From Xanthobacter aminoxidans (GTDB taxonomy: Bacteria > Pseudomonadota > Alphaproteobacteria > Rhizobiales > Xanthobacteraceae), in the NCBI RefSeq assembly GCF_023571765.1, contig NZ_JAMJXC010000024.1, positions 1 through 64,000 on the forward strand: a stretch of 64,000 nt of DNA, written 5' to 3'. Shown here piece by piece: positions 21,361-49,509 of the stretch. The translations under genes and the position numbers were made by a program. The notes under the pieces were generated by a model. That model was not told where the DNA came from, did not search any database, and worked only from the letters and a program-made list of their open reading frames with translations. Positions within the stretch are counted from its first letter, which is position 1. The number at the start of each line of letters is the position of its first letter.

Positions 21361-21462
21361 CTGAATCGCCAGCCTCTCGCTGCGTGCAGCCTTAGCGGCT
21401 GGCGGCGGGGTGTCAAACGGAACGCAGGTGCACACAGCGCCCCTCGCACTGCACAACATAAA

Positions 21463-21477
21463 TCTCATTAAATGAGA
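21463..21477. promoter_or_regulatory. Palindromic operator TCTCATT-A-AATGAGA
   Basis: A perfect 7-bp inverted repeat with a 1-nt centre in the divergent IclR/iseJ promoter region, followed by a second partial copy (GACTCATCTCATCC) at about 21502. It is probably the IclR-type regulator's site for both promoters. Confidence 0.6.
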
Positions 21478-21553
21478 CGTTTCAGTTCAAAAAATGCATT
21501 GACTCATCTCATCCCTTCGTCGCATCGTCCGTTTCGCAGAGAGGAAACTGCCA

Positions 21554-24564: not shown

Positions 24565-24578
24565 CGGGTTTCCGATCT

Positions 24579-24604
24579 GGAGGCGGCGCGCGGCCGCCGC
24601 CTCC
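24579..24604 (+). promoter_or_regulatory. Intercistronic GC-rich hairpin between iseU and xsc
   Basis: GGAGGCGGC...GCCGCCTCC, a 9-bp stem without a T tract, 49 bp before xsc. It may stabilise or partially attenuate the transcript between the uptake and cleavage genes. Confidence 0.4.
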
Positions 24605-24652
24605 CTCCCCCGAATTGCAAGATCTCCAAGGTTCCAAGAGGATTTTTTCGTC

Positions 24653-26428: not shown

Positions 26429-26505
26429 CCGAGATCCGGGCGGGGTTCAGCTTATCAGCACGCCCCGCCTGGCATTTTCTGCCCCAGTCCCCCGAGAGGA
26501 AGGCC

Positions 26506-27585
26506 ATGCTCGCCCTCGACCGGATCATCGACGCCGCGCGTGCCGCCCCCCGCAGCATCGTCCTGCCCGAGGGGAGCGACCCGCGCATTGCTGCCGGCGC
26601 GCGCCGCGCCGCGCGGGAAGGGATCGCCCGGCCGATCCTCCTCGGTGCCCGCGAGGAGGTGATGGCGGCCCTCGATGGTGATGTGCGGGGCATCGCCATC
26701 GAGGATCCCGCCACATCGCCGCGTTTCCAGGCCTATGCGGAGGCGCTGCACCTCCTGCGCCACGCCAGGGGCATGGACCTCGCTGCCGCCCGTCGGCGCA
26801 TGCGCGAGCCGCTCGCCTTCGCCGCCATGATGGTACGGCAGGGGGATGCCGACGGCACGGTCGGCGGCGCGGTGGCCACCACCGCCGAGACGGTGCGCGC
26901 CGCGCTCCAGATCATTGGCCTCGCGCCGGGAGCGAAGATCGTCTCCAGCTTCTTCCTGATGATCCTGTGCGAGGACTATCACGAGCAGAAGGGGGCCTAT
27001 GTGTTCTCCGACTGCGGCCTCGTCATCGATCCCGACGCGGCGGAACTCGCGGACATCGCCCGTGCCGCCGCCCATTCATATACCGCCATGACCGGCGAGG
27101 CGCCCCGCGTGGCCATGCTCTCCTTCTCCACCAACGGCAGCGCGCGCCACCAGCGGGTGGACAAGGTGGTGGAGGCGGTGCGCCTCGTACGGCAGGCGGA
27201 GCCGGATCTGGTGATCGAGGGGGAATTGCAGTTCGACGCCGCCTTCGTCGCCACGGTCGGGGCGGCCAAGACGGCGCCGGGATCGAAGATCCGGGGGGAT
27301 GCGAACGTGTTCGTCTTCCCCAATCTTGATGCCGCCAATATCGGCTACAAGATCGCCCAGCGCATCGGCGGGGCGAAGGCCATCGGCCCGGTGCTTCAGG
27401 GGCTGGCGAAACCCGCCAACGATCTCTCGCGCGGCTGCTCGCAGGACGACGTGTTCCACATGATCGCGCTCACCTGCGCCCAGGCCGGACGCACGCTCCC
27501 GGTCGCGATGTCTGGAAAGATTGAGGGCGTCTGGCAGAACTCACGGCCCGCCGCAGCCAGCCTCGGTGAGACGCGGGCCGGCTGA
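26506..27585 (+). CDS. pta: Phosphate acetyltransferase
   Basis: The 359-aa protein starts at ATG 26506 with GAGAGGAAG before it. The short PTA domain is complete (IVLPEGSDPRIAAGARRA, ADGTVGGAVATTAETVRAAL, MLSFSTNGSARH, ELQFDAAFV, NVFVFPNLDAANIGYKIAQR). It converts the acetyl phosphate from Xsc to acetyl-CoA and so recovers the energy of sulfonate cleavage. It is the last gene of the isethionate operon. Confidence 0.93.
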   Translation: MLALDRIIDAARAAPRSIVLPEGSDPRIAAGARRAAREGIARPILLGAREEVMAALDGDVRGIAIEDPATSPRFQAYAEALHLLRHARGMDLAAARRRMREPLAFAAMMVRQGDADGTVGGAVATTAETVRAALQIIGLAPGAKIVSSFFLMILCEDYHEQKGAYVFSDCGLVIDPDAAELADIARAAAHSYTAMTGEAPRVAMLSFSTNGSARHQRVDKVVEAVRLVRQAEPDLVIEGELQFDAAFVATVGAAKTAPGSKIRGDANVFVFPNLDAANIGYKIAQRIGGAKAIGPVLQGLAKPANDLSRGCSQDDVFHMIALTCAQAGRTLPVAMSGKIEGVWQNSRPAAASLGETRAG

Positions 27586-27935: not shown

Positions 27936-28943
27936 TCAGCTTCCGGACTTGCCGTGCACGTTGGGCAGGAAGAGGTCCTTCCAGCTCTGCGCCGTGGCGG
28001 CGATCATGCCGGTGCGGGTCATGAAGTCCGCATATTTCTGGATCGCCTGCGGCGTGGTGGTGAAGGTCACCTGCGGGTCGTTCAGGATGCCCTCGATGAG
28101 CGCCACTTCGCTGCCATCGGCGGCGAGGCGGACATAGTCCCGTGCGGCAGCCGACTTGTCGCGATTGATGATGGCGATGGCCTCTTCGAGCGCCGCAAAG
28201 AAGGCGGCATAGATTTTCGGATTGTCATTGGCGAAGCGCGTCGTCGTCCACACCACGTTGAAGGTGGAAGGCTGGCCCAGCACATCGAAGGTGTTGAGCA
28301 CCATGTGCACGCCGGGCTTCCTGAGTTCCAGTTCCTGGATCGGCGCGGCAGTGAAATGGGCCGTCACCTCATTGCCGGCCAAGAGCGCCGCCATGCCATC
28401 GGGATGGGAGAGCGTGACGGTCAATTTGTCGAGATCGTTGCGGTGGTCCGGGCCCAGCTCCTTCTCCGCGGCCATCTGCAGGAACATGGCCTGCACCGAC
28501 ACCTTCACCGCCGGCAGGGCAATCTTGTCCTTCGCGGTGAAGTCCTTCAGCGAGCGCACATTGGGATTGGACGTATTGAGCAGCAGCGGCATGGAATTCA
28601 TGGCCGCCGCCGCCTTGATCGGATTCGCGCTATCCTTGGTCTTGGCCCACAGCAGCACCAGAGGCGGCACGCCGCCGGCGGCGAACTGGATGGCGCCGGA
28701 CAGCAGGGCATCATTCATCGCCGCGCCACCGGCGAGCTTGATGTAGCGGGTTTTCAGGTTCGGCACGCCACGCGCCGCCGCCTCCTTTTCCAGCAGGCCG
28801 CGGTCTTCCATGATCATCAGCGGCAGATGGCCGAGGCTCGGCTGGCGGGCGATGGTCACGTTGTCCACTTCCGCCACCGCGGCTGACGTCATTGCGGCGA
28901 GCAGCACGAGCGCGCCCGCCAGCTTCCGTTTGAATGCGATCAT
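27936..28943 (-). CDS. ABC transporter substrate-binding protein (SsuA/TauA/NrtA type), first of two paralogues
   Basis: The 335-aa protein has a signal peptide (KLAGALVLLAAMTSAAVA). The NMT1/SsuA-type domain begins VDNVTIARQPSLGHLPLMIMEDRGLLEKEAAARG and continues with LLSGAIQFAAGGVPPLVLLWAKT and IALPAVKVSVQAMFLQMAAEKELG. It closely resembles the binding protein at 36277-37299 (shared ALPAVK-S-QA and HF-A-P-QELEL blocks), a duplication at the two ends of one operon. The likely ligand is an anionic C2 or C3 sulfonate. The ABC permease and ATPase would be those at 38310-39966. Confidence 0.85.
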   Translation of the reverse strand: MIAFKRKLAGALVLLAAMTSAAVAEVDNVTIARQPSLGHLPLMIMEDRGLLEKEAAARGVPNLKTRYIKLAGGAAMNDALLSGAIQFAAGGVPPLVLLWAKTKDSANPIKAAAAMNSMPLLLNTSNPNVRSLKDFTAKDKIALPAVKVSVQAMFLQMAAEKELGPDHRNDLDKLTVTLSHPDGMAALLAGNEVTAHFTAAPIQELELRKPGVHMVLNTFDVLGQPSTFNVVWTTTRFANDNPKIYAAFFAALEEAIAIINRDKSAAARDYVRLAADGSEVALIEGILNDPQVTFTTTPQAIQKYADFMTRTGMIAATAQSWKDLFLPNVHGKSGS

Positions 28944-29042
28944 CCTTGAGCCCTCTGTCTGCGTTTCCTCGCCCGTCTTAAGGGCGTCGCCGGGTCTGAT
29001 GCCCGGATCGGGTCTGATGTTCGAATGGGGTTTTGGGCGGCT

Positions 29043-30725
29043 TCAAGTTCGGCCGCGACGGATCACCGGAGCGGGGACGCCCTCGATCATCACATTGATC
29101 GCTGCGGGAAGCCCGCTCGCATGGGCCTCGGCGAGGGCATCCGGCAGGTCGGCGGCATCGGTGACAAGGGCACCATATCCGCCCAGCGCCCGCACCACCT
29201 CGTCATAGCGGGTGGGCAGCAGGTCGCAGTAGCGGGTCCTCCCGGCGCCATAAGTACGCAGCTGGATCTGGTGCTCGGCGTTCCAGCGGGCGTCGTTTCC
29301 GATGACCGCGATGAAGGGCGCCCCAACGCGCAGGGCCGTGTCGAATTCCGCCATGTGGAAGCCGAAGGTGCCGTCCCCCATCACCGCCACCACCGGCGCC
29401 TCCGGCCGGGCGAGCCGGGCCGCGATGGCGAAGGGAATGGAGGCGCCGATGGTGCCGGACACGCCGTTGATGATGCGGTTCTGCGCCTTGACGATGGCTT
29501 GCGGCCACTGGCCGATCTCGCCGCCGTCGCACACCAGCGTCCCGTCGGGATGCCGGGCGAGGAAATCGCGCACCGCGACGCACAGCTCCACCGGATGGAT
29601 ACGACCCGAGGCAGCCCGCATATTCGCCCAGGCTGCCGGCAGGAAGGCCAGCGCCTCGCGCGCCCGCGCGAGCCAGGATGCACGGGGCGCCGAAGCGGCC
29701 GGCGGAGATGCGGCGAGGGCGGCGAGCACGCTGCCGGCCTCCCCTTCCACGCGCTCCACAAGGAGCGGACCTTTCGCCCTGGTGGCACGCGCCAGAAGGT
29801 CCGGGTCCGCGTCCACCACCGCAAAGCGGCAGGACGCCGCCACCGCGGGCGGCGCGCCGAACTTGAGGGTGAAATCCAGCGCCTTGCCGAGCAGCACCAC
29901 GAGGTCTGCCTCGGCCAGCAACTCGGCAAAAGCGCCGAGGCCGGGATCGTTCACCCCGCGCGGGCTCTCCATGCCGATCACCGGAACGCCCGTGGCGGCT
30001 TCCAGCCGCGCCATGGCGCCCCGTCCATGCGGCGTGCACAAGGCGGGGCCGCACAGGATGAGCGGCCGGTCCGCGCTCTCAAGCAGCGCCGCGAGGCGCC
30101 CTGCGATGACCTGCGCGTCCGGCGCAGTCGGCGGCTCAATCGTCACGGCCGGCTCCGATGTGGCCAGCCGCTGCTCCAGCAAATCCACCGGCAGCGCGAG
30201 ATGGACGGGGCCGGGCCGCCCCTCCCGCGCAATGCGGATGGCCCGCGCGATGTCGGTGCCGAGCGCTTCGGCGCTCTCCACCATCCACGAGGCCTTGGCC
30301 ATGGGCCGCGCGACGGCCGCCTGATCCATCTCCTGAAAGGCGCCACGGCCCAGTTCGCCGATGCCGGCCTGGCCGGACAGCAGAAGCACCGGAGATTCCG
30401 CCCCCAGCGCCGTGAACAAGGCGGCCGCGCCATTGGACAGGCCCTGCCCGCCGGTGACGAGCGCCACGCCGATCTCACCGGTCAGGCGCGCATGGGCATC
30501 CGCCATATGCACGGCCGCCGCTTCCTGGCGCACGTGGACAAGGGCGATGTCGGTCTCCAGCAGCGCATCATAGACGGGCATGATGTGGTTGCCGGACAAA
30601 GAAAAAATGCGCTTCACCCCATGCGCCTGGAGCGCGCGGACAACGAGGTCCGCACCACGCGGGGCGAGGTCCTGCCTCGCGTTGGGGAGAGGGGCGGCGG
30701 CGGTGTGGGCGGGTGCGGGGCTCAT
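29043..30725 (-). CDS. ThDP-dependent decarboxylase/acetolactate-synthase-like enzyme, candidate sulfopyruvate decarboxylase
   Basis: The 560-aa protein has a full three-domain ThDP layout. The pyrimidine-binding part contains the activating Glu in VRQEAAAVHMADAHAR, then LVTGGQGLSNGAAALFTAL. The central domain is normal, and the PP-binding domain has VMGDGTFGFHMAEFDTALR with NDARWN. It starts by ATGA overlap with the flavoprotein upstream, so it belongs to the oxidation/hydration unit. If sulfolactate is made and oxidised to sulfopyruvate, this enzyme could decarboxylate it to sulfoacetaldehyde for Xsc. Known sulfopyruvate decarboxylases (ComDE) are two half-length chains, so a one-chain form would be notable. 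Other keto-acid substrates remain possible. Confidence 0.7.
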   Translation of the reverse strand: MSPAPAHTAAAPLPNARQDLAPRGADLVVRALQAHGVKRIFSLSGNHIMPVYDALLETDIALVHVRQEAAAVHMADAHARLTGEIGVALVTGGQGLSNGAAALFTALGAESPVLLLSGQAGIGELGRGAFQEMDQAAVARPMAKASWMVESAEALGTDIARAIRIAREGRPGPVHLALPVDLLEQRLATSEPAVTIEPPTAPDAQVIAGRLAALLESADRPLILCGPALCTPHGRGAMARLEAATGVPVIGMESPRGVNDPGLGAFAELLAEADLVVLLGKALDFTLKFGAPPAVAASCRFAVVDADPDLLARATRAKGPLLVERVEGEAGSVLAALAASPPAASAPRASWLARAREALAFLPAAWANMRAASGRIHPVELCVAVRDFLARHPDGTLVCDGGEIGQWPQAIVKAQNRIINGVSGTIGASIPFAIAARLARPEAPVVAVMGDGTFGFHMAEFDTALRVGAPFIAVIGNDARWNAEHQIQLRTYGAGRTRYCDLLPTRYDEVVRALGGYGALVTDAADLPDALAEAHASGLPAAINVMIEGVPAPVIRRGRT

Positions 30726-32452
30726 GCGACGTCCTTCAGCAGGCTCTGGCCGGGCGCGACGCGGGTGAAGGCCACCGCGGCCGTGGAAATGTCGAGGCGG
30801 CCTGCCTCCTGCCGCACCAGCGTGTAGCGCGAGGTATCAAGGTCCGAGGTCTCGGGAAAGTCCTCGCGGAAATGGGCGCCCCGGCTGTCCTCGCGGGCGA
30901 GCGCCGCGGCGGTGATGGCCTGGCTGACGAGCACCAGATTCTCGAGGTTCAGCCGGTCCATCCAGGTGAGGTTGTAGCGGCGGTCGCTGTCCGGCGCGCC
31001 GGCGCGGGAGACGGCATCGCCGAGGGCACCCAGCGTCTCCTGGGCGCGCTTCAGCCCCTGCGCCGTGCGCAGGATGCCCACGTCGTCCCACATCGCCTCG
31101 TAGAGCGCCTCGCGGATGGCGGGCAGGTCCCGCGCGTCGCGGCCCAGCGGAGAAAAGGCGCGCTCCAGCGCCTGTTCCATGGCCGCCGGGTCAGGATCGG
31201 CCAGGGTACGCCCGCGCTCCACCTCCCGCGCCATGGCATCACCGGCGATGCCGCCGAACACGGTGGAATTGGCGACACCGTTGCCGCCAAGGCGATTGGC
31301 GCCGTGCACGCCGCCCGTATCCTCCCCGGCCGCATAGAGACGGGGCATGGCGGTGCCGCAATTGCCGCCGAACACCACGCCGCCCATCATGTAATGCGCG
31401 GTGGGGATCACCTCAACCCGACCGCCGGCCAGATCGAAGCCGCAATCGGCGCAGCGTTCCACCATGCCCTTGAAGGTCTTGCGCACATGGTCGGGGCCGA
31501 GATGCCCCATCTCGATGTGCACGCCGCCATGGGCGGTGGCATAGCCGTCGCGGATGCGGCGCATGATGGAGCGGCTGACGATGTCGCGGGTGGCCCGCTC
31601 GCCGCGCGGGTCATAGAGGTGCATGAACCGCGCGCCGGTGCGGTCGGTGAGCCAGCCGCCGGCGCCGCGCAGCCCCTCCTCCAGCACGGTGCCCGTCATG
31701 CGTGTGCCGGGGCCGGCGAGGAGGCCGGTGGGGTGGAACTGCACCATCTCCATGTCGCGCAGCGCGAGGCCGGCGCGCAGGGCCATGGCGAGCCCGTCGC
31801 AGGATTTGTCGCCGGAGGGGGTGTGGTACTTGTACATGGTCGGCCCGCCGCCGGTGGCGAGCAGCACCGCGCGCGCCTTCACCAGCACCGGAACGCCGGT
31901 GCGCATGTCCAGCATGAGCACCCCGGCGAGGCCGGAGCCGTCCGCGGCGGGGATGAGGTCGAGGGCGCGATGGTCCTCCATGCGGTTCACGTCACGCCGC
32001 CACACCTGTTCCATGAGGCGGTTGATGATCTCGATGCCGGTGAGGTCGCCCTTGTGCACCGTGCGGTCGAAGGTCTGGCCGGCGAAGGCCTTCTGGTGGA
32101 CGCTGCCATCCGGATTGCGATCAAAGAAGCAGCCGAGTTCAGTCTCCAGCTCGCGGATGCGCACCTGCGCCTCGGTCACCAGCGTCCAGGCAAGATCCTG
32201 GTCGTTGAGCCACTTGCCGCCTTCCACCGTGTCCATGAAATGGCGCTCGACGCTGTCGCCGGGCGCGAGGGCCACGTTGTAGCCGCCCTGCACCATGCGC
32301 GTGCAGCCGCATTTGCCAATGAGGCCCTTCACCGCCACCGTCACGTCGAGGTCGGGCGCCGCCTTCTTGGTGTGAAGCGCAGCGAACAGGCCGGCTCCGC
32401 CCGAGCCGAGGATGAGGACGTCCGTCTCCCGGACCGCGACGGCGGGGGTCAT
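30722..32452 (-). CDS. SdhA/FrdA-like flavoprotein with altered FAD-link and substrate-pocket residues
   Basis: The 576-aa protein has the dinucleotide fold LILGSGGAGLFAAL (about 13-26), HPTG with H240, RATRDIVSRS with catalytic Arg R289, HYMMGG with H353, and GANRLGGN with R387. These match the fumarate/succinate catalytic residues. Two differences stand out. The position of the FAD-linking His in SdhA is C50 here (KCGCTRMVQGG), so FAD is probably non-covalent. The Thr of TEGCRG that contacts one carboxylate is E258 (EEGLRG), after a loop about 6 residues longer. Its gene overlaps the hydratase and ThDP genes by ATGA at each end. I infer a succinate analogue as substrate, possibly 3-sulfopropionate. 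Confidence 0.8.
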   Translation of the reverse strand: MTPAVAVRETDVLILGSGGAGLFAALHTKKAAPDLDVTVAVKGLIGKCGCTRMVQGGYNVALAPGDSVERHFMDTVEGGKWLNDQDLAWTLVTEAQVRIRELETELGCFFDRNPDGSVHQKAFAGQTFDRTVHKGDLTGIEIINRLMEQVWRRDVNRMEDHRALDLIPAADGSGLAGVLMLDMRTGVPVLVKARAVLLATGGGPTMYKYHTPSGDKSCDGLAMALRAGLALRDMEMVQFHPTGLLAGPGTRMTGTVLEEGLRGAGGWLTDRTGARFMHLYDPRGERATRDIVSRSIMRRIRDGYATAHGGVHIEMGHLGPDHVRKTFKGMVERCADCGFDLAGGRVEVIPTAHYMMGGVVFGGNCGTAMPRLYAAGEDTGGVHGANRLGGNGVANSTVFGGIAGDAMAREVERGRTLADPDPAAMEQALERAFSPLGRDARDLPAIREALYEAMWDDVGILRTAQGLKRAQETLGALGDAVSRAGAPDSDRRYNLTWMDRLNLENLVLVSQAITAAALAREDSRGAHFREDFPETSDLDTSRYTLVRQEAGRLDISTAAVAFTRVAPGQSLLKDVA

Positions 32453-33060
32453 TCGGACGCTCCGATGCCGGCCAGCACCGCGTCGCGGCGGGCCGCGACA
32501 TCCGCCTGCACCCGGTCGAACAGGGAGCCGCCATGGGCGTCCATGCCCACCAGCAGTGGCCCGAAATCACGGATGCGGAATTTCCAGAGGCTCTCGGGGT
32601 GGAGATCGTCCATGTCCACGTCCTCGATCTCCTCGATCCACGTGGTCTCCAGCGCTGCCGCGCCGCCGACGATGGCGAGATAGGCGCCGCCCAGATCGCG
32701 GAAGGCCTCCAGCGTCGCCGGACCCATGCCGCCCTTTCCGACGATGAGGCGCACCCCTTCCCGCTCCATGAGCGGGCGGGTGAAGCGCTCCATGCGCATG
32801 GAGGTGGTGGTGCCGATGCAGAAGGGCGTGTAGCCGGCGGGCGCGGCGGGGGATTTCTCCACCCGGTGCACGTTGGGCGCGGTGTGGATCACCGCATGGC
32901 CGTTCAGGTCGAGCCGCGTGGTGCGGCCGCGGTCGAACATGTGAATCTGCGTGGCGTCGCGGATGCCGAACAGGGTGCGCTGGAGCGTCACCGTATCACC
33001 GACCTTCAGGGCACGGACCTGATCGGCATCAACCGGCATTTCAAGGACATGGTGGGCCAT
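32449..33060 (-). CDS. Class I fumarase/tartrate-dehydratase-like hydratase, beta subunit
   Basis: The 203-aa protein starts at ATG 33060. It corresponds to the C-terminal (Fumerase_C) domain: VGDTVTLQRTLFGIRDATQIHMFD, HTAPNVHRVE, CIGTTTSMRMERFTRPLMEREGVRLIVGKGGMG, and VGGAAALETTWIEEIEDVDMDDLHPESLWKFRIRDFGPLLVGMDAHG. TTTSMRM supplies substrate-binding residues and the late acidic segment is family-typical. It is 14 bp after the alpha subunit and overlaps the flavoprotein (ATGA). It would hydrate the enoate made by the flavoprotein, either fumarate or a sulfonate analogue. Confidence 0.88.
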   Translation of the reverse strand: MAHHVLEMPVDADQVRALKVGDTVTLQRTLFGIRDATQIHMFDRGRTTRLDLNGHAVIHTAPNVHRVEKSPAAPAGYTPFCIGTTTSMRMERFTRPLMEREGVRLIVGKGGMGPATLEAFRDLGGAYLAIVGGAAALETTWIEEIEDVDMDDLHPESLWKFRIRDFGPLLVGMDAHGGSLFDRVQADVAARRDAVLAGIGASE

Positions 33061-33074
33061 CGGGGCGCTCCGGA

Positions 33075-33947
33075 TCAGCTGAAGGCGATGCCGCCGGGGG
33101 TGAAGGTGGCCCGCGCGCGGCGGGCGGAATGGCACTGGATGTTCACCGCCACCGGGTTCTGGGTGATGTGGGTGGCGGCGACTTCCACATGGACGGCGAA
33201 GGCCGTGGACCGCCCGCCGAGGCCCTGCGGCCCGATGCCCAGCTCGTTCACCGCGCGGGACAGCTCGGCCTCGATCTTCGCGCCTTCGGCATCCTCGCAC
33301 ACTGTGCGCAGGGGCCGCGTGGCGGCGATCTTCGCGAGGTGCATGCACAGGTCCGAGGTGCCGCCGATGCCGACGCCGACGATGGTGGGCGGGCACACCC
33401 GGCCGCCCAGCTCGATCACCCGGTCCACCACAAAGCGCTTCACGGCGGTGATGCCGTCCGAGGGCAGCAGCATCTTGAGGAACGAGCCGTTTTCCGAGCC
33501 CGAGCCCTTGGGGATCATCTCGATGGAGACGGTCTCCTCCCGGTCGTCGAAATCGATATGGATCACCGGCACGCGGATGCCGCAGGAAGTCTGGTCGTTC
33601 TTGCGGGTGATGGGATGCACCACCGACGAGCGCAGGGAGTTTTCCTTGGTCGAGCGCGCCGCGCCGCGGCGCACCGCCGCCTTAAGCCCGGCCCCGTCGA
33701 AGGCCACGTTGCGGCCGATGGTGATGTTGTAGATGGGAATGCCCGTGTCCTGGCACAGGATGTTGCGGGTGCGCTCGGCGACCTTGATGTTCTCCACCAT
33801 GGTGCCAAGGATGGCCTGGCCGGTGGCGTCCGTCTCCGTACGCTGGAGGTCCGAGAAGCCGGCCTTGATGTCCGGCGGCAGCAACTGGAGCGCGCGCAGA
33901 TAGAGGTCGGCGCAGATCTTTTCGACTTCGTCGAGGTTGAGGTCCAT
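33075..33947 (-). CDS. Class I fumarase/tartrate-dehydratase-like hydratase, alpha subunit (4Fe-4S)
   Basis: The 290-aa protein has the three cluster cysteines at family spacing: C65 (ILCQDTGIPIY), C185 (GGRVCPPTIVGVGIGG) and C272 (VNIQCHS). Other family motifs are HPITRKNDQTS and IPKGSGSENGSFLKML. The 4Fe-4S cluster in such enzymes polarises the hydroxyl of a 2-hydroxy-dicarboxylate during hydration and dehydration. The split alpha/beta form is that of TtdAB and many anaerobe fumarases. Its place beside an SdhA-like subunit and sulfonate genes suggests a dedicated hydratase rather than the TCA-cycle fumarase. Confidence 0.9.
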   Translation of the reverse strand: MDLNLDEVEKICADLYLRALQLLPPDIKAGFSDLQRTETDATGQAILGTMVENIKVAERTRNILCQDTGIPIYNITIGRNVAFDGAGLKAAVRRGAARSTKENSLRSSVVHPITRKNDQTSCGIRVPVIHIDFDDREETVSIEMIPKGSGSENGSFLKMLLPSDGITAVKRFVVDRVIELGGRVCPPTIVGVGIGGTSDLCMHLAKIAATRPLRTVCEDAEGAKIEAELSRAVNELGIGPQGLGGRSTAFAVHVEVAATHITQNPVAVNIQCHSARRARATFTPGGIAFS

Positions 33948-33956
33948 GGGGTGCTC

Positions 33957-34688
33957 CTAGAAGACCAGCGCCAGACCCGAGAGCAGGATCATCAGCGACA
34001 GCATCTGCTTGAATGCCTTCTCGTTCAGGCGGCCGTAGATCTGGAGGCCGAGCACGGCGCCGATGGCGAGCGGCGGCAGGGCCAGGACGATGAGCAGCCA
34101 GGATCGCCCGTCGATGCCCACCACCCCCACGGCTGCCAGCGTCACCACATGCGCGAACAGGATGAAGGGCTGGTACACCCCGCGCGCCACCTCCTTCGGC
34201 CAGCCGCGCAGCTGGGTCCAGATGGTGGGGACCACCCCCGAGTAGCCGCCGAGGCCGCCGAGGATGCCGCCCACGAAACCGATGCCCGCATTGGCCCACC
34301 GGCCGCCCCCGCCGATCACCGGAAGGCGCGGGGCGAGGAGCGCGTAGAGGGCATAGGCCGCCATGCCGAGGCCCAAGGCGAGCTTCAGCGGGGCGGGGTT
34401 CACCGCCGTGAGCACCAGGACGCCCAGCGGCACTCCCACCAGCGCGCCCACGAGGAAGGGCGCGAGGCGCACCCCGTCGATGGACCGGCGGATGGGCCAG
34501 ACCAGCGTGAGATGCAGGATACTGCCGCAGGCGACGATCAGCGCGGTGGTCTGGATCGGGTCCAGCGCGTGCAGCCAGATGGCGGATGCGGCAAGGGCGA
34601 AGGCAAAGCCTGCCCCGCCCGCCGCCAGCGCACCGAGAAAGGCGCCGGCCCAGAGAATGGAAAGGGTCGCGAGCGGAATGCCGAGCAT
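33957..34688 (-). CDS. TSUP (TauE/SafE) family membrane transporter
   Basis: The 243-aa protein starts at ATG 34688. About eight hydrophobic segments form two similar halves. The first repeat motif is WAGAFLGALAAGGAGFAFAL and the second GFVGGILGGLGGYSGVVPTIWTQLRGWPKE, as in TauE/SafE proteins. Family members export sulfite or sulfoacetate, or import organosulfur anions. It sits 2 bp after the SdhC-like gene and 9 bp before the hydratase, so it is a true operon member. Likely tasks are sulfite efflux or movement of the organosulfonate or its acrylate intermediate. Confidence 0.85.
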   Translation of the reverse strand: MLGIPLATLSILWAGAFLGALAAGGAGFAFALAASAIWLHALDPIQTTALIVACGSILHLTLVWPIRRSIDGVRLAPFLVGALVGVPLGVLVLTAVNPAPLKLALGLGMAAYALYALLAPRLPVIGGGGRWANAGIGFVGGILGGLGGYSGVVPTIWTQLRGWPKEVARGVYQPFILFAHVVTLAAVGVVGIDGRSWLLIVLALPPLAIGAVLGLQIYGRLNEKAFKQMLSLMILLSGLALVF

Positions 34689-34690
34689 GC

Positions 34691-35071
34691 TCACCACCCG
34701 CTCAGCAGGAAGAGGAGCCCCACGGCGAGGCCTGCCGCGATGGCACCCGCCACCACCCCGGCGGTGTGGCCACGGAAGGAGAACCACTCGATGGCCAGCA
34801 CCCGGAGGCCAAGCGCCATGTGCACGGCAAGGGCGCTCACGAGGCCCCATTCGGCGATCTTCACCAGCGGGCTGTGGGTGACGGACAGGAAGCTGTCGAG
34901 CGCGTTGGCGCCCGAGAGTGCGGTGCCTAGCGCGATGAAGTGCATGGGCAGGAACACCGCCAGCGCCACGCCCGACAGGCGATGGAGCAGCGCCGCGATG
35001 AAGCCCGGCTTCAGGTGGGCAGCCTCGCGCAGGCCGGGGCGGGTCGTGGAGGTGAGGGTGGACGGCTTCAC
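34691..35071 (-). CDS. SdhC-like cytochrome b membrane anchor
   Basis: The 126-aa protein has three membrane segments. GFIAALLHRLSGVALAVFLPMHFIALG carries the HR-x-SG motif and a His in helix I, as in succinate dehydrogenase cytochrome b556. A second His lies in LVSALAVHMALGLRVLAIEW, a candidate axial heme ligand. The GTG start at 35071 overlaps the stop of the preceding anchor gene (GTGA). Together with the next anchor it would pass electrons from the flavoprotein and iron-sulfur subunits to quinone. Confidence 0.8.
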   Translation of the reverse strand: MKPSTLTSTTRPGLREAAHLKPGFIAALLHRLSGVALAVFLPMHFIALGTALSGANALDSFLSVTHSPLVKIAEWGLVSALAVHMALGLRVLAIEWFSFRGHTAGVVAGAIAAGLAVGLLFLLSGW

Positions 35072-35412
35072 GGCACCAGTCCTCCCGGCTGATAGACCGC
35101 CAGCGCAGCACGCAGCCCCAGCACCAGGATGGCGGCAGCGAAGGCCAGCATGGCCATGTCGAGGGAGCGCGAGCGCCAGCCGGTCCATTCACGGATTACG
35201 CTGCGCAGGCCGATGGGGGCGTGAATGGCGGCGGCGCAGACGAACACACAGTAAAACGCGAGAAACCAGCCGTTGCCCGCCGTCCGCGACAGGATTTCCG
35301 CCGCGCTGAGCCCGCCGCGAACGGCGTGCACCATGGTGGCGAGGTGCAGCGCCACCGCGAGCGCCAGCACCGCGGCCGTGCCGCGCTGGGCCATGTAGAG
35401 AAGGGGATTCAT
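35068..35412 (-). CDS. SdhD/FrdD-like second membrane anchor
   Basis: The 114-aa protein has three hydrophobic segments (GTAAVLALAVALHLATMVHAV, WFLAFYCVFVCAAAIHAPIGL, LDMAMLAFAAAILVLGLRAAL). The two His in the first helix and the IHAPIGLRSVIREW loop resemble succinate/fumarate dehydrogenase anchors. It overlaps sdhB-like by 4 bp (ATGA) and sdhC-like by 4 bp. Individual similarity is low, as is usual for anchors, so the call leans on order and topology. Confidence 0.7.
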   Translation of the reverse strand: MNPLLYMAQRGTAAVLALAVALHLATMVHAVRGGLSAAEILSRTAGNGWFLAFYCVFVCAAAIHAPIGLRSVIREWTGWRSRSLDMAMLAFAAAILVLGLRAALAVYQPGGLVP

Positions 35413-36185
35413 GACTTCACCAGCAGCGCGAGGAGGCGGCCCAGGGGCGAGGGCGCGGTGGCGCGCTTGAGGCCCGCGATGGCGTAGGTGGGCGCCAGAT
35501 CCTTGGGGCAGAACTCGGTGCAGCTCATGTGGCTGTGGCAGGAGTGGCAGCCCACGTCCCCGGACACGGCGGCGAGCCGCGCCGCATTGCCCCGGTCGCG
35601 CTCGTCATTCACCAGAGTCCAGGCGCGGTTGAGGGCGGCGGGACCGAGATAGTCCTTGTTCCAGGCCACCACGTCGCAGGCGGAATAGCACACGCCGCAA
35701 TTGATGCATTCGACGCCGGCGTCGGCGGCCTTCCGCTTCGGGCTGTCGGGCCGCACCGGCGCGAAATCCGCAGGCGGGGCCTCGCCCGGCTCGAAGGCGC
35801 CGTGGGCGCCGCGCCATTTCTCGAAGAAGGGGACCATGTCGACGGTCAGATCCTTCACGATCGGCAGGTTGCGCAGGGGCTCCAGCACAAGGATGTCGCC
35901 GTCCAGAGCCTCGGAAACCCGGGTGCGGCAGGTCCAGCGCGGCCGCCCGTTCACCACCATCGCGCAGGAGCCGCACATGCCGACCCGGCAGGCGAAGCGG
36001 TAGGAGAGCGTCGGGTCCTGCGCGCGCTGGATCTCCGTCACCACGTCGAGAACGGTCTGGCTGGCGCGGCGCGGCACCGCGAAGTCCTCGAAGGCGCCGT
36101 CGGCCTGGCCGCGCCACACGCGGACGCGCAGGGTCTCCTCGGCCTGCGCTGCCGCCGGCCGCCCGTTCTGGCTCGTGCTGGTCAT
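35409..36185 (-). CDS. SdhB/FrdB-like iron-sulfur subunit
   Basis: The 258-aa protein starts at ATG 36185. A plant-type ferredoxin domain has C66, C71, C74 and C86 for [2Fe-2S]. A C-terminal domain has C160, C163, C166 and C170, and C213, C216, C222 and C226, for the [4Fe-4S] and [3Fe-4S] clusters. In the usual CxxCxxxCP the last Pro is Asp here (CYSACD). It forms the electron wire between the flavoprotein and the two membrane anchors, so a full four-subunit, quinone-linked dehydrogenase is encoded in this operon. The subunit order (B-D-C, TSUP, hydratase, A) is unlike a housekeeping sdhCDAB locus. Confidence 0.9.
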   Translation of the reverse strand: MTSTSQNGRPAAAQAEETLRVRVWRGQADGAFEDFAVPRRASQTVLDVVTEIQRAQDPTLSYRFACRVGMCGSCAMVVNGRPRWTCRTRVSEALDGDILVLEPLRNLPIVKDLTVDMVPFFEKWRGAHGAFEPGEAPPADFAPVRPDSPKRKAADAGVECINCGVCYSACDVVAWNKDYLGPAALNRAWTLVNDERDRGNAARLAAVSGDVGCHSCHSHMSCTEFCPKDLAPTYAIAGLKRATAPSPLGRLLALLVKS

Positions 36186-36276
36186 GTCGTTCGTCCTGAA
36201 GGCTTCTTGAGACGCCGCAGGCTGCCGCCCGCGACGGGAAGGCACGCGATGGCCGCGCGCCCGGCCAAGGCGATCT

Positions 36277-37299
36277 TCAGCCCCCCGGCGCACCGTGGAT
36301 GGCGGGGAAGAAGATGTCCTTCCAGTCCTTGGTGGTGGCGCCGACGAGGCCGGCCCGGTGCATGTAGTCGAGATAGGACAGCACCTTCTTCGGGGTGGTG
36401 GTCCACTCGTTCTCCGGCGACTTGATGATGGCCACCGCCTCGTCAACGCTCATCTTGGAGCCCTCGGCCTTGATCCACAGCGCGGCCATGGCGGCAGGAT
36501 CCTTGCGGATCAGGGCATTGGCCTCCTCCAACGCGGCGAGGACGGCGGCGAGGGCCTTGGGGTTCTCGGTGGCGAACTTCTCGGTGGCCCAGATGACGTT
36601 GAAGGTGTGCGGCCCGCCGAGCACCTGATAGCTGTCCAGCACCTTGTGGGCGCGCGGGTCCTTCAGCTCCAGCTCCTGGAAGGGGGAAGAGCCGAAATGC
36701 GCGGTGACCTCGGACTTGCCGCCCATCATGGTGAGCTGGGCATCCGGGTGGCCCATCGAGACGGTGAGGGAATCCAGCTTGTTCTGCTGGCCCGTGCCGA
36801 AGGCCTGCTCGGCGGCCATCTGCAGCGTCACCGCCTGGATGGAGGTCTTCACCGCCGGCAGGGCGATCTTGTCGGCGGAGGTGAAGTCCTTGATGGTCTT
36901 CACGTTCGGGTTCACCGAGACGAGGTAGAGCGGCATGGCGTTCAGCGCCGCGATGCCCTTGACCTTGAGATTGCCGCGCGTGCGGGCCCAGATGGTGAGC
37001 ATCGGCCCGACGCCGCCGGCGGCAATATCGAGATTGCCGGAGATGAGGGCCTCGTTCATGCCCGAGCCGCCGGTGAAGCGCAGCCATTCGGTCTTCAGCG
37101 CGAAGCCCTTGGCGCTCGCCTGCTTCTCGATGAGGTTCAGCTCCTCCATCACCGTCATCGGCAGATAGGAGATGCCGAACTGCTTGGCGAGGCGGACCGT
37201 TCCGGTTTCCGCACGTGCCGTTCCTGCGGCGAGCGACAGCGGAACAAGGGCTAGCGCTGCGGCGGCGAACACAGCCGCGCGTTTGAAGAAGAGACCCAT
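36277..37299 (-). CDS. ABC transporter substrate-binding protein (SsuA/TauA/NrtA type), second paralogue
   Basis: The 340-aa protein starts at ATG 37299, with a signal peptide (AAVFAAAALALVPLSLAAGTARA). The domain opens TVRLAKQFGISYLPMTVMEELNLIEKQ and continues with LISGNLDIAAGGVGPMLTIWART, IALPAVKTSIQAVTLQMAAEQAFG and a C-terminal MHRAGLVGATTKDWKDIFFPAIHG. It is the first gene of the ten-gene operon and divergent from a GntR gene whose promoter holds a shared operator. It probably feeds the ABC permease and ATPase at 38310-39966. The ligand is unknown; a C3 sulfonate is the contextual guess. Confidence 0.87.
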   Translation of the reverse strand: MGLFFKRAAVFAAAALALVPLSLAAGTARAETGTVRLAKQFGISYLPMTVMEELNLIEKQASAKGFALKTEWLRFTGGSGMNEALISGNLDIAAGGVGPMLTIWARTRGNLKVKGIAALNAMPLYLVSVNPNVKTIKDFTSADKIALPAVKTSIQAVTLQMAAEQAFGTGQQNKLDSLTVSMGHPDAQLTMMGGKSEVTAHFGSSPFQELELKDPRAHKVLDSYQVLGGPHTFNVIWATEKFATENPKALAAVLAALEEANALIRKDPAAMAALWIKAEGSKMSVDEAVAIIKSPENEWTTTPKKVLSYLDYMHRAGLVGATTKDWKDIFFPAIHGAPGG

Positions 37300-37514: not shown

Positions 37515-37528
37515 GTCATATATATGAC
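37515..37528. promoter_or_regulatory. GntR operator site A (GTCATATATATGAC)
   Basis: A perfect 14-bp palindrome in the divergent region between the binding-protein operon and the GntR gene. It covers the GntR start codon (ATG at 37524). It fits RTCWTATATAWGAY, shared with sites B, C and D. Confidence 0.75.
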
Positions 37529-38276
37529 ATCGGAATCCGTCACCCCCACGAACGCCCGGGCGGCCGCCATCGAGGCACGGCCGCTCTACCAACAGACGCG
37601 CGACCTGCTGCTGAAGCGCATCATCGACGGCGTGTGGAAGCCCGGCGGCTACCTGCCGAGCGAGCAGCAGCTCTGCGGCGAGCTGGGCGTCTCCATCGGC
37701 ACCATCCGCAAGGCCACTGAGGAGCTGGTGATCCACGGGCTTCTAGAACGCCAGCATGGACGCGGCACGCGGGTGGTGCCCCACTCCAGCGCCAAGTCGC
37801 GCTTCCGCTTCCTGCGCTTCGTGCATGGGGATGGACGCCCGCTCGATCCGGTGGCGCATCTCCTCACCCAGACCGTTCGCGCGGCCAGCGCCGAAGAGCG
37901 CCGGCAGCTCGATCTCGACGCCAATGGCAAGGTGCTGGCGCTCACGCGCATCCGCAGCGAGAAAGACCAGCCGCTGGTCTACGAGCGCCTGGCGCTGCCG
38001 GCGCAGACCTTCGCCGCGCTGGGGCTGGAGACCGGCGAGGATATCGTGGAGGAGGTGTACGTCTTCTATCAGGAGCGCTGCGGCGTCACCATCATGCGCA
38101 CCGAGGACGAGGTGGGCATGGCGGTGGCGGATGCCACCATGGCGCAGCATCTCGGCATCGCGACGGGCGCCCCGGTTCTGGAGGTGCGGCGCGTCGCCCA
38201 CGCCCTGGATGGGCGGCGCGTGGAATATCGCGAGAGCTTCACCGCCCACCTCAAGTACAGGACCGCCCTTGAGTAA
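37524..38276 (+). CDS. HutC-type GntR regulator, first of two paralogues
   Basis: The 250-aa protein has a GntR winged HTH (PLYQQTRDLLLKRIIDGVWKPGGYLPSEQQLCGELGVSIGTIRKATEEL) and a UTRA effector domain (RFRFLRFVHGDGRP, LVYERLALPAQTFAAL, HALDGRRVEYRESFTAHLKYR). The only start that keeps the HTH whole is ATG 37524, which lies within operator A and lacks a Shine-Dalgarno. Initiation may be leaderless, and a bound repressor would then block its own expression directly. It is divergent from the ten-gene operon and most likely controls it. Confidence 0.87.
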   Translation: MTSESVTPTNARAAAIEARPLYQQTRDLLLKRIIDGVWKPGGYLPSEQQLCGELGVSIGTIRKATEELVIHGLLERQHGRGTRVVPHSSAKSRFRFLRFVHGDGRPLDPVAHLLTQTVRAASAEERRQLDLDANGKVLALTRIRSEKDQPLVYERLALPAQTFAALGLETGEDIVEEVYVFYQERCGVTIMRTEDEVGMAVADATMAQHLGIATGAPVLEVRRVAHALDGRRVEYRESFTAHLKYRTALE

Positions 38277-38309: not shown

Positions 38310-39203
38310 TCAGGCCTGCATGCCCCAGCGCTGGATGGTGTGGCGCTCGATGGTCTGGAAGATCAGGTTTTCCACCACGAGGCCGATGAGGATGACTGTG
38401 AGCAGACCGGCGAACACGTTGGCGATGTCCAGCATGTTCTTGTTCTCGAAGATGAACCAGCCGAGACCGCCGGACCCCGATGACACGCCGAACACCAGCT
38501 CTGCCGCGATCAGCGTGCGCCACGCAAATGCCCAACCGATCTTCAGCCCGGTGAGGATGGAAGGAAACGCCGCCGGGATGAGGATGGTGGCGATGAAGCG
38601 CGGCCCCCTCAGCCCGTAGTTCCGACCCACCATCTTCAGCGTGCGGCTCACCGAGAGAAAGCCGGAATGGGTGTTGAGGGCGATGGCCCATGTCACCGAA
38701 TGCACCAGAACGAAGACAAGGCTGGCGGTGCCGAGCCCGAACCAGATCAACGCCAGCGGCAAGAGCGCGATGGCCGGCAGTGGATTGAACATGGAGGTCA
38801 TGGTCTCCAGGAAATCCGTGCCGATGCGCGAGGCGATGGCGAGCGCCGTCAGCACCGCCGCCAGGGTGATGCCGATGGCGTAGCCCATCAGCAGCACCCG
38901 GAGCGATCCCCACGCGCGTTCCGGCAGCACGCCGTTCATCACGTTGGCGAAGAAGGCGGAAACGGTGGCGCTGAAGGTGGGAAAGAGCAGGTCGTTGTTG
39001 AGGACGCGCCCGTAGATTTCCCAGGCCAATGCCAGCGCGGCGAGAATGATGAGCTTGCGGAAGAAGCTCCAGTTGTAGAGCAGCTCCCAGGTGGAAAGCG
39101 GCTTTTCCACCACCGTCATGGCGTCGGCCGGCATGTCCTCACGATAGATTTCCGGACGCGGCTCGGTGATGGGAATGACCTTCAGGGTGGCGACCTCAGG
39201 CAT
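38310..39203 (-). CDS. ABC transporter permease (SsuC/TauC type)
   Basis: The 297-aa protein has about six membrane segments and the EAA-loop region (LKMVGRNYGLRGPRFIATILIPAAFPSILTGLKIGWAFAWRTLIAAEL), typical of nitrate/sulfonate/taurine permeases. The N-terminus has an extra polar leader of about 45 residues. Its start overlaps the end of the ATPase gene by 8 bp. No binding protein is adjacent in this unit, so the two binding proteins of the neighbouring operon probably share it. Confidence 0.88.
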   Translation of the reverse strand: MPEVATLKVIPITEPRPEIYREDMPADAMTVVEKPLSTWELLYNWSFFRKLIILAALALAWEIYGRVLNNDLLFPTFSATVSAFFANVMNGVLPERAWGSLRVLLMGYAIGITLAAVLTALAIASRIGTDFLETMTSMFNPLPAIALLPLALIWFGLGTASLVFVLVHSVTWAIALNTHSGFLSVSRTLKMVGRNYGLRGPRFIATILIPAAFPSILTGLKIGWAFAWRTLIAAELVFGVSSGSGGLGWFIFENKNMLDIANVFAGLLTVILIGLVVENLIFQTIERHTIQRWGMQA

Positions 39204-39966
39204 CGATGATCTCCTTCGCCTCGTCGGCGAACAGCATGTGCTGGATGCGCTGCTCGAGAAGCGCGGCGTCCTTGGGATCGGTGGTGCTGTTGATCTCCGC
39301 CTTCACCCGGCCGGGATGGGGCGAGAGCAGGAGGATGCGGTTGCCGATCTTGATGGCCTCGGCGATGGAATGGGTGACGAATAGCACGGTGAAGCGGGTG
39401 TCCGCCCACAATTGCAGCAGTTCGTCCTGCATCTTCCGGCGCGTCAGCGCATCGAGCGCGGCGAAGGGCTCGTCCATCAAAAGGATGTCGGGTTCCATGG
39501 CCATGCCGCGGGCGATGGCCACGCGCTGCTTCATGCCGCCGGAGAGCATGTGCGGATAGGTGTCCGCGAACTTGGTGAGGTTGACCTTTTCGATGTAGTG
39601 CATGGCCCGCTCGTCCGCCTCCTTGCCCTTCAGCTTGCGGGCGGCGGTGAGGGCGAAGGCCACGTTCTGGCGCACGGTCTTCCAGGGCAGGAGCTGGTCG
39701 AATTCCTGGAACACCATCATGCGGTCCGGCCCGGGGGCGCGGATCACCTGCCCCTTGAGGCGCATCTCGCCCTCCGTGGGCGTGATGTAGCCGCCGACGG
39801 CCTTCTGCAGGGTGGATTTCCCGCAGCCGGACGGCCCCAAGAGGATGAAGCGGTCGCCCTCGAGAACGTTGAAATCCACCCTGTAGGTGGCGGTGACGAG
39901 TAGATTCGGCGTCTTGTACTGCAGCGTTACGCCACTCACCTCCAGAAGAGGTTTCTGCGAACCCAT
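39196..39966 (-). CDS. ABC transporter ATPase (SsuB/TauB type)
   Basis: The 256-aa protein has Walker A GPSGCGKSTL, Q-loop FQEFDQLLPW, signature LSGGMKQRVAIARGM, Walker B ILLMDEPFAALD and H-loop FVTHSIAEA. These are the features of nitrate/sulfonate/taurine importer ATPases. It is the first gene of a two-gene unit, with 354 bp upstream that contains operator site B. Confidence 0.92.
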   Translation of the reverse strand: MGSQKPLLEVSGVTLQYKTPNLLVTATYRVDFNVLEGDRFILLGPSGCGKSTLQKAVGGYITPTEGEMRLKGQVIRAPGPDRMMVFQEFDQLLPWKTVRQNVAFALTAARKLKGKEADERAMHYIEKVNLTKFADTYPHMLSGGMKQRVAIARGMAMEPDILLMDEPFAALDALTRRKMQDELLQLWADTRFTVLFVTHSIAEAIKIGNRILLLSPHPGRVKAEINSTTDPKDAALLEQRIQHMLFADEAKEIIDA

Positions 39967-41118: not shown

Positions 41119-41224
41119 GATCCTCTTGCCCCCTGGTCCGGCGCGTCAGTCTCCGACGCTTATAGGTGCGGCTGGCCCGGCTTGCATCTCACCCCGTGGA
41201 GCTTGCAACACCCGCCAGTCTCAT

Positions 41225-41238
41225 ATCTTATATATGAT
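41225..41238. promoter_or_regulatory. GntR operator site C (ATCTTATATATGAT)
   Basis: A near-perfect palindrome in the divergent GntR/slcC region, 79 bp before the slcC start. It fits RTCWTATATAWGAY. Confidence 0.7.
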
Positions 41239-41316
41239 AACGGAATAGAAGCGCATGCAATGCCCTCGTTCCGCGCCCAGAACGACAATATCCGAAAACG
41301 ACAACCGGAAACGCCC

Positions 41317-46962: not shown

Positions 46963-49427
<2,465 letters not shown>

Positions 49428-49509
49428 GCGTGTCTCTCCCTGGTGCTGCCGGTGGTCCGGCCTGTTCTGGAGCGCGCGCCGGGGCGCCCTGCTCCCTTTT
49501 TCGACGCCG

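Follow-up and report, generated by a model that had tools for sequence, protein, structure and literature searches.

A ten-gene operon at positions 27936-37299 (minus strand) of the Xanthobacter aminoxidans contig NZ_JAMJXC010000024.1 probably encodes the uptake of 3-sulfopropionate (3-SP) and its oxidation via 3-sulfoacrylate and (R)-sulfolactate, which would then be passed to the (R)-sulfolactate sulfo-lyase SuyAB. The whole stretch of DNA analysed, positions 1 to 64,000 of this contig, is called the window below. 3-SP is succinate with one carboxylate replaced by sulfonate, and the initial annotation of the window had proposed its conversion to 3-sulfoacrylate and 3-sulfolactate in the manner of succinate, fumarate and malate. 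This main line is well supported by gene runs that include SuyAB in related genomes, by the enrichment of SuyB in genomes carrying the operon's flavoprotein and by the presence of the module in Roseovarius nubinhibens ISM.

In the mechanism that we infer, a binding-protein-dependent ABC transporter would import 3-SP. A membrane-bound complex resembling succinate dehydrogenase (SDH), SdhB-SdhD-SdhC-Fp, where Fp is the flavoprotein, would take two hydrogens from 3-SP and pass the electrons to quinone, yielding 3-sulfoacrylate. The fumarase-like [4Fe-4S] hydratase HydAB would then add water at C2 of 3-sulfoacrylate to give 3-sulfolactate. If the geometry of L-malate is kept, the product would be (R)-sulfolactate, the substrate of the neighbouring SuyAB; the descriptor becomes (R) instead of that of L-malate because CH2SO3- outranks COO- under the Cahn-Ingold-Prelog rules, and this enantiomer fits SuyAB as the stronger genome-level partner. 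SuyAB would cleave (R)-sulfolactate to pyruvate and sulfite, the latter being exported by TauE and/or oxidised by SorA. A second branch may run in this genome, in which SlcC/ComC would form sulfopyruvate, a thiamine diphosphate (ThDP) decarboxylase would convert it to sulfoacetaldehyde, and Xsc and Pta would lead on to acetyl-coenzyme A. SlcC and ComC would serve to interconvert the sulfolactate enantiomers, with sulfopyruvate as intermediate, or to supply a decarboxylase.

The initial annotation listed ten minus-strand genes encoding an SDH-like complex, a split hydratase, a TSUP transporter, a ThDP enzyme and two binding proteins; all ten were recovered, each with Pfam and NCBIfam support far beyond chance. 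Transcription begins with SBP2 (36277-37299), an SsuA-like periplasmic binding protein of 340 amino acids (TIGR01728, 9.8e-22, below cut-off), followed by an SdhB-like iron-sulfur subunit of 258 amino acids (35409-36185; PF13085 (Fer2_3) at 5.8e-27 plus a 4Fe-4S domain; TIGR00384 at 190 bits, cut-off 88) and two membrane anchors matching PF01127 (Sdh_cyt), one SdhD-like (35068-35412; 1.4e-7) and one SdhC-like, of cytochrome b type and with a GTG start (34691-35071; 4.4e-11). The TSUP (TauE/SafE) exporter comes next (33957-34688; PF01925 (TauE), 2e-19) and probably exports sulfite. The hydratase consists of HydA, a class I fumarase alpha-type subunit of 290 amino acids (33075-33947; PF05681 (Fumerase), 2.4e-86), and HydB, the beta-type subunit of 203 amino acids (32449-33060; PF05683 (Fumerase_C), 6.7e-30). 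The SdhA/FrdA-like flavoprotein Fp follows, with 576 amino acids (30722-32452; PF00890 (FAD_binding_2) at 6.6e-69, PF02910 (Succ_DH_flav_C) at 1.4e-27), then the ThDP enzyme of 560 amino acids (29043-30725; PF02776 (TPP_enzyme_N) at 4.7e-34, PF00205 and PF02775) and finally SBP1, an NMT1/SsuA-like periplasmic binding protein of 335 amino acids (27936-28943; PF13379 (NMT1_2) at 1.4e-9; TIGR01728 (SsuA_fam) at 6e-19 and 68 bits, below cut-off). The eight core genes overlap by at most 4 bp or are separated by 2-14 bp, with SBP2 and SBP1 set off from them by 91 and 99 bp, and relatives of SBP2 (47-72%) adjoin Fp in loci L033, L036, L038-L040, L050 and L064. The 5' ends used in the profile scans deviate slightly (TSUP, for instance, was taken to 34766 and SdhC to 35068) from the starts reported above, which were located separately; gene calling by G+C bias is rough, and gene counts in loci rest on tblastn.

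Fp belongs to a sharply bounded orthogroup. At a threshold of E ≤ 1e-110, it is present in 32 of the 385 genomes sampled from the class, each copy being at least 61% identical to the window Fp with E < 1e-230, and no match fell between E 1e-230 and the threshold. The window and the 31 other Fp neighbourhoods, each compared with the window's genes, form the class sample. A wider genome scan, queried with a roseobacter Fp from a type B module (see below), gave at least 589 Fp relatives, the best 80 of which form the best-80 set. Compared with E. coli fumarate reductase (FRD), Fp keeps H240, R289, H353 and R387, which we take to be active-site (catalytic or substrate) residues of complex II and which are invariant in two alignments, one of 15 of the 32 class-sample sequences and one of 19 sequences (the window and 18 loci from the best-80 set). 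It differs by Glu258 in place of Thr, Cys50 in place of His and RGAGG in place of RGEGG. In FrdA, this Thr presumably binds the substrate carboxylate and this His presumably carries flavin adenine dinucleotide (FAD) covalently. Cys50 and Glu258 are likewise invariant in both alignments, and of 124 loci checked, 122 have the Glu motif and 123 the Cys motif; the two most distant relatives deviate, haloarchaeal L071 in the Glu motif and Rhodococcus L074 in both. Fp also falls short of the NCBIfam SDH equivalog cut-off (TIGR01816, 332.7 vs 727.35 bits). Because Glu258 and Cys50 replace the Thr and His of FrdA, the sequence marks Fp as related to complex II but altered in its pocket, rather than as an SDH copy, and its FAD is probably bound non-covalently. 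The complex II subunit set is complete, with FAD and Fe-S subunits and two cytochrome-b-type anchors (PF00890, PF02910, PF13085 and PF01127 twice). The window complex thus has the four subunits, the FAD/Fe-S domains, the two anchors and the key His and Arg residues in common with E. coli SdhABCD and FrdABCD, but differs from them by Glu258, Cys50, RGAGG and SDH/FRD equivalog scores below cut-off. The AlphaFold model of Fp has a mean predicted local distance difference test score of 71.8, with loops at approximately 43-62, 236-255 and 384-391 below 50.

These features bear on a more ordinary explanation, namely that the operon holds a spare SDH/fumarase pair acting on succinate and fumarate that happens to be carried in a sulfonate island. 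Fold and catalytic residues are indeed conserved, HydA scores above the NCBIfam cut-off for fumarate hydratase, and in many loci the Fp-hydratase pair occurs without nearby sulfonate markers. However, the window genome (G000; 5.8 Mb, 100% complete) contains two further Fp matches at E ≤ 1e-20, with 36 and 35% identity. The first adjoins an SdhB (L002) and is probably the housekeeping SDH, while the second looks like an L-aspartate oxidase by its motifs. Given this separate SDH-type flavoprotein, the distance of Fp from the SDH model and the near-universal Glu and Cys motifs, we consider a spare pair highly improbable; an ordinary additional SDH/fumarase was rejected on the replaced residues, the sharp orthogroup and the strong SuyB link described below.

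Two types of hydratase accompany Fp. Type A, 66-74% identical to the window's hydratase, was found in 9 of the 31 other class-sample neighbourhoods, the contig of L047 holding the beta subunit only. Type B was found in 19 of the 31 and is 26-39% identical to the window's hydratase and 64-69% to the alpha subunit of Pseudomonas MPC6; it directly adjoins Fp except in L041, where it lies ~6 kb away. The best-80 set is biased toward type B because its query was a type B roseobacter Fp, and it comprises 78 type B loci and two without an assigned type, as the stretch of L144 stops behind Fp and no hydratase is seen in L154. In an alignment of four type A and seven type B HydA sequences, from which one further row was excluded because its coordinates produced a stop, both types keep Cys65, Cys185 and Cys272. 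Type A keeps the fumarase motifs CQDTG and KGSGSENGS, in whose place type B has C[GA]DTG and HKGGLFG[TS]D[YF]R. The window HydA passes the fumarate hydratase cut-off (NF004885, 295.7 vs 276 bits) while HydB fails that of the TtdB/FumA C-terminal model (138.7 vs 145.15 bits). Like two-subunit class I fumarases and L-tartrate dehydratases, HydAB thus has PF05681 and PF05683, the three cysteines, CQDTG and GSEN, but unlike them it partners Fp in a sulfonate operon and its HydB scores below cut-off. The second hydratase type, present in most relatives and ~33% identical to the window's, may form sulfolactate or may release sulfite directly. In one class-sample locus (L043:5663-9135), Fp and SdhBDC occur without a hydratase and precede genes for an aminotransferase and a GbdR-like regulator; Fp may have another partner or substrate there.

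At the genome level, Fp is strongly associated with SuyB. SuyB (E ≤ 1e-90) was detected in 34 of the 385 genomes, 20 of the 32 with Fp and 14 of the 353 without (odds ratio (OR) 40, lineage ignored), and Xsc (E ≤ 1e-190) in 47, including 14 of the 32 Fp genomes (OR 7.5, lineage ignored). The control gene PcaH occurs in 84 of the 385 genomes and in 21 of the 32 Fp genomes (OR 8.8). Within PcaH-positive genomes, SuyB accompanies Fp in 17 of 21 cases vs 3 of 63 without Fp (OR 85), and within PcaH-negative genomes in 3 of 11 vs 11 of 290 (OR 9.5). The corresponding figures for Xsc are 7 of 21 vs 8 of 63 (OR 3.4, p 0.04) and 7 of 11 vs 25 of 290 (OR 18.6). The link of SuyB with Fp far exceeds that of the control gene; the link with Xsc is weaker and was down-weighted because its crude OR is no higher than that of PcaH. 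SuyB is present in 9 of 10 type A genomes including that of the window, the exception being 78% complete. Among the type B genomes of the class sample, SuyB and Xsc each occur in 9 of 19.

Gene neighbourhoods point in the same direction. The SDH-like and hydratase genes had been proposed to form part of a sulfonate module, and this is borne out by the SuyB enrichment and by loci in which they share one run with SuyAB, SlcC, ComC, TauE-type and ABC transporter genes. L033 encodes on one strand SuyA, SuyB, SdhB, SdhD, SdhC, TSUP, SBP2, ABC ATPase, ABC permease, HydA, HydB, Fp, a ThDP gene, SlcC and ComC, and L036 holds the same set reordered and without the ThDP gene. Plasmid pMRAD01 of Methylobacterium radiotolerans (L064) has the window's set including the ThDP gene, with homologues of TauE, SuyA, SuyB, SlcC and ComC downstream, and lacks the ABC permease and ATPase. 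The type B locus L114 (Paracoccus sp. IB05) combines the module with SuyAB, SlcC, ComC, ABC, TauE, YeiH and NIPSNAP genes. Within 10.5 kb of Fp, the nine type A loci of the class sample other than the window, four of which lie on stretches shorter than 17 kb, contain TauE (5), SuyB (2), SlcC (2), ComC (2) and a sulfonate-type ABC permease (7). Over the same distance, the 19 type B loci of the class sample contain TauE (2), a sulfite-dehydrogenase-like gene (1), the ThDP gene (4) and an ABC permease (1), nine plasmid type B loci contain TauE (6), YeiH (5), NIPSNAP (4), a semialdehyde dehydrogenase (3) and SlcC plus ComC (2), and the 78 type B loci of the best-80 set contain TauE (45), sulfite-dehydrogenase-like genes (7), the ThDP gene (12), CaiB (10) and SuyB (1). 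These counts are lower bounds because Pfam found TauE genes missed by tblastn (G205/L035 and L066). Across the 32 Fp genomes there are 228 TauE matches in ~140 Mb, so that chance alone would place ~1 within 10 kb of Fp; TauE lies that close in at least 9 of the 32 (at least 8 relatives and the window; Poisson p ~2e-6). The initial annotation regarded homologues located mostly away from sulfonate genes as an argument against its proposal. Type A gives no such picture: of its 9 class-sample loci other than the window, 5 have one or more of the listed sulfonate or sulfite genes within 10.5 kb and 7 have the ABC permease, whereas type B is mixed, with such a gene in 3 of 19 class-sample and 47 of 78 best-80-set loci.

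The same gene runs help to narrow down the substrate. The enzymes could act on another sulfonate, for example converting sulfosuccinate to sulfofumarate and then to oxaloacetate and sulfite, or on one not yet considered. The genomic evidence indicates a sulfonate but not which one, and Glu258 hints at an unusual group in its part of the pocket. However, SlcC, ComC and SuyAB, encoded in the same run, act on the C3 compounds sulfolactate and sulfopyruvate, two steps from 3-SP, and degradation of 3-SP itself is reported for R. nubinhibens, according to passages of PMC11489063. A different sulfonate therefore appears improbable.

The initial annotation knew of no described pathway of this kind, yet one had been proposed. 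Bacterial 3-SP breakdown is described in the relevant passages of PMC11489063 (Chen et al. 2024) as unreported except for homotaurine use by R. nubinhibens ISM, and the thesis of J. Mayer (Konstanz) is cited there for degradation of 3-SP in this strain via sulfoacrylate and sulfolactate. R. nubinhibens ISM carries the module (L099, NZ_CH724156.1, in the best-80 set) in the order TauE, LysR, tripartite carboxylate transporter, SdhB-SdhD-SdhC-Fp-HydA, CaiB-like gene, HydB. The strain thus combines the same proposed intermediates with the same SDH-like module, the passages of PMC11489063 on these steps naming no genes or enzyme classes for them. Unlike the window, it has the other hydratase type (type B, 32% identical to the window's) and a CaiB-like gene between HydA and HydB. 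This gene (L099:12702-13874) is CaiB/BaiF-type CoA-transferase-like, the family name coming from sequence inspection, and genes 60-78% identical to it occur in nine further loci of the best-80 set. A homotaurine degrader in Paracoccus is named in part of PMC12421959, and the genus Paracoccus also carries the module. According to sections of PMC11489063 and PMC12890257, gut Enterococcus makes 3-SP from sulfoquinovose and dihydroxypropanesulfonate, similar genes being found in other Firmicutes, and 3-SP serves as an electron acceptor for Bilophila, in which its breakdown route is called unclear; a 2022 review (PMC9594981) states in its part on 3-SP that its degradation needs further investigation. 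In the passages on sulfonates of PMC11489063, PMC12890257, PMC12421959, PMC11507031, PMC12068725, PMC5320631, PMC11659671, PMC13372026 and PMC9594981, SDH-like or fumarase-like genes are not assigned to 3-SP. More generally, a gene assignment for the pathway was not found in the PMC literature, whose reach mostly excludes subscription papers and theses. The pathway had thus already been proposed, while the gene assignment is new relative to the parts of the PMC literature searched: candidate genes can now be named for an aerobic 3-SP route and tied to a strain with a reported route, turning a thesis-level pathway into a defined gene set. A poorly known part of the sulfur cycle thereby gains genes that can be tested and that have relatives in many bacteria. 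If the assignment is true, the operon would clearly exemplify how a respiratory complex can be re-tuned to accept a sulfonate in place of a dicarboxylate.

For type B in particular, and less so for type A, direct desulfonation has to be considered. Here, the hydratase would hydrate sulfoacrylate at C3 and so form 3-hydroxy-3-sulfopropionate. As the bisulfite adduct of malonate semialdehyde, this product would break down to sulfite and malonate semialdehyde. 3-Chloroacrylate dehalogenase and DmdD act comparably, releasing chloride and methanethiol. This would suit the departure of type B HydA from the motifs shared by type A and fumarase, as well as the CoA-acylating methylmalonate-semialdehyde dehydrogenase gene found right after HydB in Pseudomonas MPC6 and the full-length semialdehyde dehydrogenase gene near SdhB in Cupriavidus P-10 (M. 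nodulans has only a 15% fragment). Several type B modules are moreover flanked by TauE, YeiH or sulfite dehydrogenase genes on stretches without a known desulfonase, and three type B genomes (G205, G194 and G287; 91, 98 and 94% complete) have no Xsc, SuyB or TIGR01275 match at the thresholds used, G205 having TauE beside HydB. On the other side, such semialdehyde dehydrogenases lie near just 3 of 106 type B loci, one of them being the fragment, type A retains the fumarase motifs and sits with SuyAB, and all 25 type B genomes of the best-80 set that were searched have Xsc (22), SuyB (6) or a CuyA homologue (18), although this test has little power because Xsc is common in roseobacters. The R. 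nubinhibens gene was taken to be CuyA by its family. Direct desulfonation by type B is weakened because these 25 genomes hold a desulfonase or CuyA homologue and L114 pairs its type B module with SuyAB and also with SlcC and ComC; in addition, the thesis report on R. nubinhibens, a type B strain, names sulfolactate, as cited in PMC11489063. We regard this alternative as unlikely. If type B did hydrate the sulfur-bearing carbon, a new kind of desulfonation would be present in many roseobacters. A combined scenario, in which a tricarboxylic acid cycle trio was duplicated into a respiratory sulfonate module and then split into a type A that forms (R)-sulfolactate for SuyAB and a type B that releases sulfite and malonate semialdehyde, seems rather doubtful.

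Oxidation of 3-SP to (R)-sulfolactate is thus the reading that we favour for the window, and several observations weigh against it. Because the R. nubinhibens module is of type B, the route in the thesis is no more than an analogy as regards the hydratase of the window. Genomes with Fp have a rich catabolic repertoire overall, since the unrelated PcaH is also enriched in them, and the ORs ignore lineage beyond the PcaH strata. No listed marker lies within 10.5 kb in 16 of 19 class-sample and 31 of 78 best-80-set type B loci, some of whose contigs are short, and a hydratase near Fp was not found in L042-L044 and L154. A Glu at the carboxylate-binding Thr position of SDH is no obvious holder of a sulfonate. 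Finally, the SuyB gene of the window lies ~11 kb from Fp in a separate transcription unit.

Regarding the fate of sulfolactate, SuyAB is the better-supported exit, with weak support for the ThDP/Xsc branch. The ThDP enzyme reaches 298 bits with its best NCBIfam model (cut-off 587), its closest solved structure is a 2-hydroxyacyl-CoA lyase (7pt1, 4e-65), and it fails the Xsc model TIGR03457 (164 vs 676 bits). TIGR03846 (ComDE beta family) has no match anywhere in the window genome at E ≤ 1e-15. Two readings are offered for the enzyme, a candidate sulfopyruvate decarboxylase in the place of ComDE or one resembling 2-hydroxyacyl-CoA lyase; ComDE and Xsc perform ThDP chemistry on C3 and C2 sulfonates, as proposed here, but the operon's enzyme belongs to neither family. 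Replacement of ComDE is favoured by the lack of a TIGR03846 match in three genomes with the ThDP gene (G000, G222 and Marivita G387). R. nubinhibens has both the ThDP gene and a TIGR03846 match, and G001, G080, G335 and G388, also with the ThDP gene, have matches below cut-off. Xsc is missing in 5 of the 11 searched genomes with the ThDP gene beside the module (G080, G335, G388, G394 and G405), which means that Xsc cannot in every case receive the ThDP product. No ThDP gene of at least 40% identity was found in the nine class-sample type A loci other than the window, and the gene between Fp and SlcC in L033 is ALS-like and 29% identical to the window's. The exit from sulfopyruvate to sulfoacetaldehyde via the ThDP enzyme and Xsc in the initial annotation is accordingly not general, and the ThDP reaction as an obligatory step is weakened. 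The ThDP gene (19 loci) and the semialdehyde dehydrogenase (3 loci) never co-occur, three loci being too few to lean on.

The neighbours expected from the initial annotation were located as Xsc, SlcC-like, ComC-like and SuyB genes and an HpsN candidate. Divergent from the operon lies a GntR-family regulator (37524-38276, plus strand), followed on the minus strand by a sulfonate/nitrate-type ABC permease (38310-39203) and the ATPase of the same transporter (39196-39966), which have relatives of 59-80% and 67-81%, respectively, near Fp in other loci. On the plus strand follow an SlcC-like 2-hydroxyacid dehydrogenase (41155-42252), with PGDH-type NCBIfam matches and a name inferred from context, and a ComC-like dehydrogenase of sulfolactate/malate type (42249-43253; best NCBIfam model NF040650 at 198 bits, below the cut-off of 500). 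SuyB, the large subunit of (R)-sulfolactate sulfo-lyase, is encoded at 43347-44588 (minus strand) and is 87% identical to that of M. radiotolerans (E 5.5e-254). The HpsN candidate of the HisD family (46963-48921) and the sulfite dehydrogenase SorA (56577-57944) lie further along. On the other side of the operon, sulfoacetaldehyde acetyltransferase Xsc (24653-26428, plus strand; TIGR03457 at 980 bits, cut-off 676) and Pta together span 24653-27585. They end a series at 20530-27585 of an IclR regulator, a GMC dehydrogenase, an MFS transporter, Xsc and Pta, which presumably resembles an isethionate (ise) cluster of the iseR-iseJ-iseU type; Xsc therefore does not necessarily belong with the operon described here. 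For a 642-amino-acid open reading frame at 49288-51216, whose G+C content by codon position is odd, no NCBIfam match was found at E ≤ 1e-20; it is possibly no gene.

The module is widespread in alphaproteobacteria, occurring in ~8% of the sampled genomes of the class and frequently in roseobacters, and relatives of the flavoprotein are found in gamma- and betaproteobacteria, Rhodococcus and a haloarchaeon. Plasmid-borne Fp relatives, whose neighbourhoods were examined in 12 of 16 records, come from Methylobacterium, Pseudomonas, Cupriavidus, Paracoccus, Sulfitobacter, Pseudorhizobium and NT-25. The plasmid records of Rhodococcus jostii RHA1 (Fp 56%, HydA 51%) and of the haloarchaeon Natribaculum luteum (Fp 52%) hold more divergent forms. 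Beside type B modules, a small NIPSNAP-family protein is encoded together with YeiH in four of the plasmid records (L065:14135-14461, L067:13428-13742, L070:13413-13727 and L075:13365-13679). In one type A lineage (L040, L045, L047 and L049), a serine/threonine-dehydratase-like pyridoxal phosphate (PLP) enzyme gene adjoins Fp, joined in L040 (6818-9031, 10906-11880) and L047 by an NADH:flavin oxidoreductase-like gene; its scores are those of a serine/threonine dehydratase, and an assignment of this PALP-family neighbour as CuyA was rejected on that ground. A gene of the argininosuccinate-lyase family (L071:7299-8801) is adjacent and divergent to Fp in Natribaculum, accompanied by TauE and two UxaA-family (SuyA/SuyB-like) genes. 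This argininosuccinate-lyase-family gene scores 260 bits with the model for XcbC (bacterial coenzyme M synthesis; cut-off 575) and 323 with argH, above cut-off. In Xanthobacter, an enzyme of the same family presumably makes sulfoacrylate, for which the PMC literature searched gave no confirmation. The gene may encode an unrelated (class II) sulfoacrylate hydratase or a plain argininosuccinate lyase. Finally, the Fp of a record titled Oceanobacillus sp. HTM 045 (L136) is 79% identical to that of Sulfitobacter THAF37, and the record is possibly mislabelled.

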